A stretch of DNA of 64,000 bases from Sulfurovum sp. TSL1 (lineage in GTDB: Bacteria; Campylobacterota; Campylobacteria; Campylobacterales; Sulfurovaceae). The stretch spans positions 479,106 to 543,105 of the forward strand of contig NZ_BPFI01000001.1 in assembly GCF_019972135.1 (NCBI RefSeq), given 5' to 3'. Under the pieces are notes generated by a model. That model was not told where the DNA came from and did no database searches. It saw only the letters and a list, made by a program, of their open reading frames with translations. The translations under genes and the position numbers were made by a program. Below are positions 33,917-35,832 of this stretch, one piece after another; position 1 is the first letter of the stretch, and each line of letters starts with the position of its first letter.

Positions 33917-33941
33917 CGCTTGATTAAAATTTAATCAAGCG
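33917..33941. promoter_or_regulatory. 25-bp near-perfect palindrome between fetB and the ABC genes
   Basis: CGCTTGATTAAA and TTTAATCAAGCG are inverted copies separated by one base. No T-tract follows, so it is more likely an operator than a terminator. The TTGAT/ATCAA ends are nine bases apart, too far for an FNR site. It lies about 75 bp upstream of the fetB start and may control either divergent unit. Confidence 0.5.
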
Positions 33942-34010
33942 ACTATACATAAATTGCTCCATTATTGTTATACTTGAAACACAAATATTGGAAAGTAATT
34001 TAAGAGGTCT

Positions 34011-34222
34011 AAATACAAAGTGTCATGCTTTGTATTTACAAGTGCCTGAAGTGAATTAAAACCTCCTTTTTGAATACGATGTAATCTCTCCTTATCTCAC
34101 TTCAGGTACCTGTAAATACAAAAATTTCAACTCTTAAAAATTTCAATATGGCATAGGTATACCCCCCCCATGTAGAGGCTATACCTATGTCAAAAAACGT
34201 ATAAGTTTTTTTAAAAGGAGGT
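34011..34222 (+). promoter_or_regulatory. Structured leader of the nitrate-type ABC genes with an anti-RBS loop
   Basis: Hairpin A pairs AAATACAAAG (34011-34020) with CTTTGTATTT (34028-34037). Hairpin B pairs 34029-34054 with 34097-34122 (26 positions, one G-U and one mismatch) and uses the same 34029-34037 strand, so A and B exclude each other. The loop of B holds ACCTCCTTTT (34061-34070), exactly complementary to the RBS AAAAGGAGGT (34213-34222). A third hairpin pairs CATAGGTATA (34152-34161) with TATACCTATG (34180-34189) around eight C. This looks like a cis-acting control RNA; the signal is unknown. Confidence 0.6.
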
Positions 34223-34225
34223 AAG

Positions 34226-35044
34226 ATGAAATATGTACTTTTAAAAAAGATCATATTCCCGCTGTTCATAGTGATCGCCCTATTGACTATATGGAGCGTC
34301 ATCGCAAGTGTGGTGGACGGGTTCCCGACTTCTGCCGATACCTATGTAGCAGCTTTTGGAGGAGAAGATGCAGAAGGAGATGAAGTCGATGGTGTTTTCT
34401 CTGATCCTTTTTTTATAGATGCTGAAGATGATAAAGGGATCTTTTGGCATCTATTGGAATCACTGAAAAGCGTTTTTGGCGGATTTGCACTTTCACTGAT
34501 CATAGGAATTCCTTTGGGGATACATATAGGCATGAGCAAAAATCTGCAATATGCCTTTGATCCTTTTATTCAGATATTGAAGTCTATATCGCCATTGGCA
34601 TGGTTGCCCCTGTTACTTTTTATCTTCAAAGATATAAAAATGACAATGATCTCAACCATCTTTCTTACTTCTATCTGGCCGGTCATGATCAACACGGTTG
34701 CAGGTGTACGCAGTGTCAGTGAGGATTATATAAATGTGGCCAGGATCTTAAGATTTACAGCACTTGAAAAAGTAGTACAGATCATTCTCCCCGTTGCTGT
34801 ACCGCACATCTTTACCGGGATGAGACTCTCAGTGGGACTTTCCTGGTTGGTGATCATCGGTGCTGAGATGCTGGCCGGGGGTATGGGTATAGGAGCGTGG
34901 ATCTGGAATGCATACGATGACCTTGCTTATGCTCATGTGATTATTGGCATTATCCTGGTCGGATTGATCGGGTTTATGTTGGATCTGATGATGAGAAAGG
35001 TAGCCGATTTCTTTGATTACACAAAAAAAGGTAGAGCGTCATGA
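34226..35044 (+). CDS. ABC transporter permease, nitrate/sulfonate/bicarbonate type
   Basis: 272-aa inner-membrane permease of the NrtB/SsuC/TauC group. A first helix is followed by an acidic periplasmic loop (GGEDAEGDEVDG) and five more helices. The ATPase-contact loop is near SEDYINVARILRFTALEKV, and the conserved LSWLVIIGAEMLAGGMGIG follows. It overlaps the ATPase gene by 4 bp. No substrate-binding protein is next to it. The neighbouring NarK-type gene makes nitrate or nitrite plausible. It has a strong RBS that the leader could sequester. Confidence 0.88.
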   Translation: MKYVLLKKIIFPLFIVIALLTIWSVIASVVDGFPTSADTYVAAFGGEDAEGDEVDGVFSDPFFIDAEDDKGIFWHLLESLKSVFGGFALSLIIGIPLGIHIGMSKNLQYAFDPFIQILKSISPLAWLPLLLFIFKDIKMTMISTIFLTSIWPVMINTVAGVRSVSEDYINVARILRFTALEKVVQIILPVAVPHIFTGMRLSVGLSWLVIIGAEMLAGGMGIGAWIWNAYDDLAYAHVIIGIILVGLIGFMLDLMMRKVADFFDYTKKGRAS

Positions 35045-35832
35045 GTGAATTTCTAAATTTGAAAAATATTGAAAAAAAGTTCCCTGTTTCTGGAAAAGAA
35101 GCGTATATTGCACTGACCAATGTAAATCTGGAAATTAAAAAAAATGAGATCATTTCTATCATCGGACACAAAGGATGTGGCAAATCAACGCTACTGAATA
35201 TCATCTTGGGTCTCGAAAAACAGACCAAAGGGGATATTACCCTGAATGGAAATAAAGTGACTGAACCTGGACCGGACAGAGCAGTCGTATTTCAGCATGG
35301 CTCTTTGCTTCCATGGCTGAGCGTATATGAGAACATAGAGATGGCCATTAGAAAAATCATGCCTGAACTTGATGCACGCGCCTTACGTGAACGTGTAGAA
35401 AAATTTGTCTCCATCGTAAATCTGGATGCAGCAAAAGACAAACTTCCGTGTGACATCTCCGGAGGTATGAAACAGCGTGCCGATATCGCAAGGGCCCTTT
35501 CTATCAAACCGGATGTCTTACTGCTGGATGAACCTTTTGCCGCGATAGACTCTTTAACAAGAAGTACGCTGCAGGAACTTTTAATGGATATACAGCAGAG
35601 TGTGAACACTACCATGATCATTATGACACATGACATAGATGAAGCCGTACTGCTCAGTGATCGAGTGGTCATGATGACCAACGGACCTGAAGCAACCATT
35701 GGTGAGATACTCGAAGTAAATCTGGAACGTCCGAGAAACAGAGTGGAGCTTCAACATGATCCTGAGTATATCAGATGCAGAGAAGCCATTGTGGCTTTTT
35801 TTTATAAAAAATTTGCCAAAGAAGACGAATAA
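35041..35832 (+). CDS. ABC transporter ATP-binding protein, nitrate/sulfonate type
   Basis: 263-aa ATPase. Walker A is GHKGCGKST (Cys in place of the common Ser/Gly), the Q-loop is VVFQHGSLLPWLSV, the signature is ISGGMKQRADIARAL, Walker B is VLLLDEP and the switch is MTHDIDEAV. The pattern fits NrtD/SsuB/TauB enzymes. It pairs with the preceding permease. It ends 13 bp before the convergent MscS gene. Confidence 0.9.
   Translation: MSEFLNLKNIEKKFPVSGKEAYIALTNVNLEIKKNEIISIIGHKGCGKSTLLNIILGLEKQTKGDITLNGNKVTEPGPDRAVVFQHGSLLPWLSVYENIEMAIRKIMPELDARALRERVEKFVSIVNLDAAKDKLPCDISGGMKQRADIARALSIKPDVLLLDEPFAAIDSLTRSTLQELLMDIQQSVNTTMIIMTHDIDEAVLLSDRVVMMTNGPEATIGEILEVNLERPRNRVELQHDPEYIRCREAIVAFFYKKFAKEDE

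Follow-up and report, generated by a model that had tools for sequence, protein, structure and literature searches.

A conserved RNA element of Campylobacterota lies between nrtA and nrtB in operons for a nitrate-type ABC transporter, and its loop carries a segment that matches the RBS of nrtB. Its most likely effect, which we put forward with moderate confidence, is to lower nrtB translation through pairing of the loop with that RBS. Because the hairpin has been conserved for so long and its loop mirrors an RBS, we most likely have here a control element made of RNA, so far undescribed, that limits nrtB translation. In the window, by which we mean the whole stretch of 64,000 nucleotides from Sulfurovum sp. 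TSL1, nrtA has been lost, and the same element now forms the 5' leader of an orphan nrtBC pair. The original prediction, made from this one leader, was of a cis-acting translational switch; that the element was originally intercistronic, that a second copy is present in the genome and that stand-alone relatives exist are points that go beyond it. The features of the window are as follows.

33917..33941, no strand assigned: palindrome CGCTTGATTAAAATTTAATCAAGCG, a 12-bp perfect inverted repeat, probably an operator inherited with the nrtA promoter
33969..33974, + strand: predicted -10 box TATACT, within TGTTATACTTG
34010..34038, + strand: upstream small hairpin, arms 34010-34020 / 34028-34038, competing with the main stem for its 5' arm
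34029..34122, + strand: conserved element, a 23-bp stem (34029-34051 / 34100-34122) with a local extension to 34059/34092, plus loop
34061..34070, + strand: anti-RBS segment ACCTCCTTTT, in the loop of the long hairpin
34129..34217, + strand: third domain, a hairpin with a C8 loop (34149-34164 / 34177-34192) and an outer remnant
34213..34222, + strand: nrtB RBS AAAAGGAGGT, exact complement of 34061-34070
34226..35044, + strand: nrtB, start codon ATG at 34226, nitrate-type ABC permease
35041..35832, + strand: nrtC, nitrate-type ABC ATPase

The two genes behind the leader had been described as nitrate-type ABC genes, and both products score above the relevant cut-offs (NrtB, TIGR01183, 214.9 vs 209.05; NrtC, TIGR01184, 320 vs 291.8). 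NarK-family and rhodanese genes lie 3' of nrtBC, and a divergent gene for a UPF0014 membrane protein lies upstream of the leader. The second copy of the hairpin in this genome is found on another contig, in the nrtA-nrtB spacer of a complete nrtABC operon.

The arms of the long hairpin (34029-34059 / 34092-34122) cover 31 positions and are 87% complementary, and the fold energy of the leader is 6.3 sd below that of shuffled sequences. Since the strand 34029-34038 is common to the small and long stems, the two are mutually exclusive at the base. The arrangement first noticed, a loop borne on a long hairpin with a smaller upstream hairpin competing for the same strand, was thus recovered, and both hairpins are conserved in relatives. 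The third hairpin with its eight C residues is likewise present, but it stands outside the conserved element and is lineage-specific: a hairpin is kept at this position in close relatives, and the C8 loop is replaced by other loops in three genomes (G097, G137 and G090). A role of the C8 tract as a phase-variable or metal-operator site was rejected on the grounds that the loop is not kept in close relatives. The outer remnant of the third domain (AACTCTTAAAAA, 34129-34140, with TTTTTTTAAAAG, 34206-34217) overlaps the RBS. The window leader contains no GC-rich hairpin followed by a U run of the intrinsic attenuator type. For the leader, a nested fold with loop and RBS paired is less stable than the optimal one (-60.9 vs -73.4 kcal/mol).

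The exact complementarity of the loop decamer to the RBS, the starting point of the prediction, is borne out by the sequence. The decamer occurs twice in the 64-kb window, in the loop and at the RBS, and nowhere else, with 0.22 occurrences expected. When the loop was shuffled, 0.27% of the sequences contained a complement of at least 10 nt to the 22-nt RBS region, and when the leader was shuffled, 1.6% did; at chance levels of ~0.3% and 1.6% the match is notable, not overwhelming alone. It is the comparison across species, and not the single match, that makes the loop-RBS complementarity convincing.

Spacers were collected by DNA, protein and covariance-model searches, with family names inferred from organism names. 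The hairpin is present between nrtA and nrtB in the Sulfurovaceae, Sulfurimonadaceae, Arcobacteraceae and a fourth family of the order; it directly follows nrtA in most genomes and is absent from several nrtABC operons. Thirty-five sequences, 33 nrt leaders and two stand-alone copies, were aligned without gaps over the 23-bp stem. This set was picked by stem sequence only, and each loop was excised at the best inverted repeat found automatically. Compensatory changes are found at 20 of the 23 stem pairs, 93.3% of cells are paired, and double-change cells number 143, vs 39 (sd 5.7) in shuffled alignments and at most 32 when partners are slid. Judged by this covariation, which the original prediction had named as its check, the element is a structured RNA conserved as base pairing. 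On the nrt strand, G-U stem pairs outnumber A-C pairs, 39 to 17, which makes the nrt-sense RNA the probable functional form. Across 398 genomes of the order, model R2 matched only at nrtB loci and at the stand-alone locus, with one or two copies per genome; a weak match to model R1 was also recorded near a contig end (L067, G147:C306:132-198). Rfam, searched at gathering and relaxed thresholds, returned no family at gathering score, the best hit being at chance level (mir-550, 23 bits vs 81), and we found no description of an nrtB leader RNA in the open-licence literature.

Outside the Arcobacteraceae, the loops co-vary with their own nrtB RBS. TCCT or CTCC is present in 30 of 35 loops, vs 9.7 (sd 2.5) in shuffles, and the reverse complement in 1 of 35. 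Loops fit their own nrtB RBS better than permuted RBSs, over all 35 sequences (p=0.0006) and within the Sulfurimonadaceae (p=0.0005), these permutation p-values being optimistic because the species are related. With the Arcobacteraceae set aside, the fit reaches z=-4.0 (p=0.0002), vs z=-1.0 for the nrtC-RBS control; neither the nrtC RBS nor windows of the nrtB coding region, used as controls, gave anything comparable to the nrtB-RBS fit. Eleven leaders of the Arcobacteraceae with the same stem show no preference for their own RBS (p=0.89), and in the Sulfurovaceae alone the fit is marginal (p=0.10 by energy, p=0.056 by run length). In absolute terms, pairing energy is equal for the own nrtB RBS (-8.5) and the own nrtC RBS (-8.4). 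The longest exact loop-RBS matches are of 13 nt in G099 and G676, where they reach beyond the SD core, 10 nt in G469 and the window, and 9 nt in G641, G600 and G592. In the window's own genome, the loop of the C2 paralogue scores -13.1 with the C1 RBS vs a weaker -7.3 with its own. An independent replication of the loop-RBS test was attempted, and nearly all the loci obtained came from genomes already used.

The history of the window copy can be read from its relatives. The element is identical at 94 of 94 positions in the window and in G097, vs 67.5% identity in the downstream spacer, ~80% in the promoter region and 67.7% at nrtB four-fold sites; this extreme identity holds for the orphan copies and is not generalisable, because other species pairs lack such conservation of the loop. 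The box TGTTATACTTG also occurs in G097 and G137. In G090, the order is a palindrome, this box, an intact nrtA and then the element. At the orphan locus of G137 (C10, L269), only the last nrtA codons, a C-terminal remnant, remain between box and element, and that genome carries a complete nrtABC operon at another site. No trace of nrtA is left in the window or in G097. From this series, the window leader is a fusion of an nrtA promoter with an nrtA-nrtB spacer, and it is comparison with relatives that establishes the loss of nrtA and marks the window genes as an orphan nrtBC pair. A TGATTAAAAxTTAATCA-like sequence occurs upstream of nrtA (G090, G139), of the orphan locus (G137, G097) and of the stand-alone element, and the palindrome TTGATTAAAATTTAATCAA (33917-33941 in the window) recurs ~27-30 nt before the TATACT box at nrtA and stand-alone loci; it is probably the site of one shared regulator. 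A promoter consensus scan of the window leader detected no + strand promoter and did not pick up the -10 box at 33969-33974. Because the element is preceded by this promoter-like box, the counterpart of the nrtA promoter in relatives, transcripts should include the loop, and the transcription start is expected near 33981, upstream of the loop.

We propose that the long stem presents its pyrimidine-rich loop to the downstream nrtB RBS and that pairing of the two, as a pseudoknot or a long-range contact, would lower nrtB translation relative to that of nrtA, keeping the membrane subunit scarce compared with the binding protein. Several results count against it: the Arcobacteraceae show no own-RBS preference and the Sulfurovaceae a marginal one, pairing energies to the nrtB and nrtC RBSs are equal, the C2 loop fits the C1 RBS better than its own, the nested loop-RBS fold is the weaker one, several nrtABC operons lack the element, and in many species the RBS is very close to the stem. 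In the window, a pseudoknot on the intact stem would be possible because the RBS lies ~90 nt from the stem. Many species have only 12-25 nt from the stem end to the start codon, and with the RBS so close, the loop could reach it in many relatives only if the stem opened at its base. It is this base for which the upstream hairpin competes in three families, which suggests a toggle: by pairing with the lower part of the 5' arm, it would release the 3' arm and put a longer tether between the loop and the RBS. Exchange at the base may then make or break the contact, for example as ribosomes finish nrtA, although this coupling to nrtA, like any signal acting on the element, is something that we infer. 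The overlap of small hairpin and main stem is kept in 16 of 18 leaders of the Sulfurovaceae, 2 of 2 of the fourth family and 19 of 21 of the Arcobacteraceae, so the mutually exclusive stems of the original prediction are conserved in three families; they are mostly missing in the Sulfurimonadaceae (5 of 15), the family with the best loop-RBS co-variation. As for the predicted switch, the cis RNA element with compensatory changes at 20 of 23 pairs, the anti-RBS loop with its species-specific fit outside the Arcobacteraceae and the competing hairpin all stand, whereas a ligand-sensing riboswitch finds no support: the stem is a plain helix of 23 bp, its loop varies, an aptamer-like junction is lacking, and Rfam gave no family at gathering score.

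The position of the element right after nrtA in most genomes would also suit an intercistronic stability or processing hairpin, at which the 3' end of the nrtA mRNA is protected or cut by an RNase so that nrtA message exceeds nrtBC message, with loop-RBS pairing secondary or absent. We consider this a serious but improbable alternative. It would accommodate the Arcobacteraceae, which keep the stem without a fit to their own RBS and some of which have a U tract after the first hairpin, resembling an intrinsic terminator, but it leaves unexplained the anti-RBS motif in 30 of 35 loops, the loop-RBS co-variation and the 94/94 identity in two genomes without nrtA. Rather unlikely is a reading in which the CCUCC loop pairs in trans with the RBSs of other mRNAs, or a protein reads the conserved AAGTRCCTAG-like stem, and the match to nrtB simply follows from the loop being anti-SD. 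The strong conservation of the stem sequence, the equal pairing energies to the nrtC and nrtB RBSs, and stand-alone copies with the same stem, a CCTCC loop and their own promoter-like box would agree with such trans pairing; it does not account for co-variation with the own nrtB RBS past the SD core, as in the 13-nt matches, which is not seen with the nrtC RBS.

A transporter-gene leader with alternative stems would suit a riboswitch that binds nitrate, molybdate or a related compound, yet such a riboswitch is highly improbable here, given a loop that ranges from 23 to 61 nt, no aptamer-like conserved core and no Rfam match at gathering score. Least probable of all, and close to negligible, is a feature of the DNA, an operator or mobile inverted repeat. 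The stem is indeed an extended inverted repeat of conserved sequence, but the nrt-strand excess of 39 G-U over 17 A-C pairs, the strand-specific loop motif and the presence of one or two copies per genome speak against it. A mobile or REP-type repeat in particular was rejected by the low copy number together with the orthologous positions.

Several known systems come close to the element. RBS-sequestering leaders, such as translational operators and riboswitch expression platforms, likewise have an RBS-complementary leader segment and alternative stems; the nrt element, by contrast, carries its anti-RBS segment in the loop that closes a very long stem, is located between genes of nrtABC operons and yielded no sensor domain. 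In repZ of ColIb-P9/IncI-type plasmids, a loop contacts a downstream segment near the RBS, with coupling to an upstream frame, and the pseudoknot activates translation. Compared by description, the likeness is the contact of a loop with the RBS region; the repZ pseudoknot activates, whereas the loop of the nrt element is matched to the very RBS. REP hairpins of the malE-malF type lie between binding-protein and permease genes and can skew subunit amounts, and REP sequences are high-copy. The type of position is the same, in contrast to the one or two copies per genome and the anti-RBS loop found here. To our knowledge, few structured cis-regulatory RNAs are known in Campylobacterota. The NMT1 motif, a xanthine riboswitch with a two-stem junction aptamer, precedes NMT1-like and nitrate/sulfonate-type ABC transporter genes in alpha-, beta- and gammaproteobacteria (PMC7373994). 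The gene context is similar, and the element described here matches no Rfam family at gathering score. The element occurs in four families, in the nitrate-importer operons of bacteria important in marine nitrogen and sulfur cycling, and the loop-RBS co-variation offers precise mutations for testing unequal amounts of binding protein and permease from one operon.

Stand-alone hairpins were found in five Sulfurovum-genus genomes, at the following positions.

L022:1504-1589; L024:1504-1589; L027:1438-1523(-); L047:1126-1214(-); L064:1501-1587(-)

Each is flanked by a glycine-zipper lipoprotein gene on one side and a cinA-like (MoCF_biosynth) gene on the other, and the copies have a conserved CCTCC loop and an invariant upstream YTATACTTTG box (TATACTTTG); the lipoprotein gene's own promoter is downstream of the element. 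These copies may be a small RNA gene acting in trans. They resemble the Rhodobacter cuckoo RNAs, CCUCC-loop small RNAs with an anti-SD motif in hairpin loops; this comparison is by description, and the main form here is cis-encoded. As a tentative extension, one RNA family might exist in two forms, one in cis at nrtA-nrtB, where the loop pairs with the nrtB RBS, the other a free small RNA with its own nrt-like promoter (palindrome and -10 box), whose CCUCC loop would act on RBSs in trans. Stand-alone copies would give a way to study an RNA moving between cis and trans roles. A short peptide within the L024 element was dropped as a candidate because its reading frame is not kept in relatives. 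In four of the five genomes with a stand-alone copy, an NrtB match is absent.
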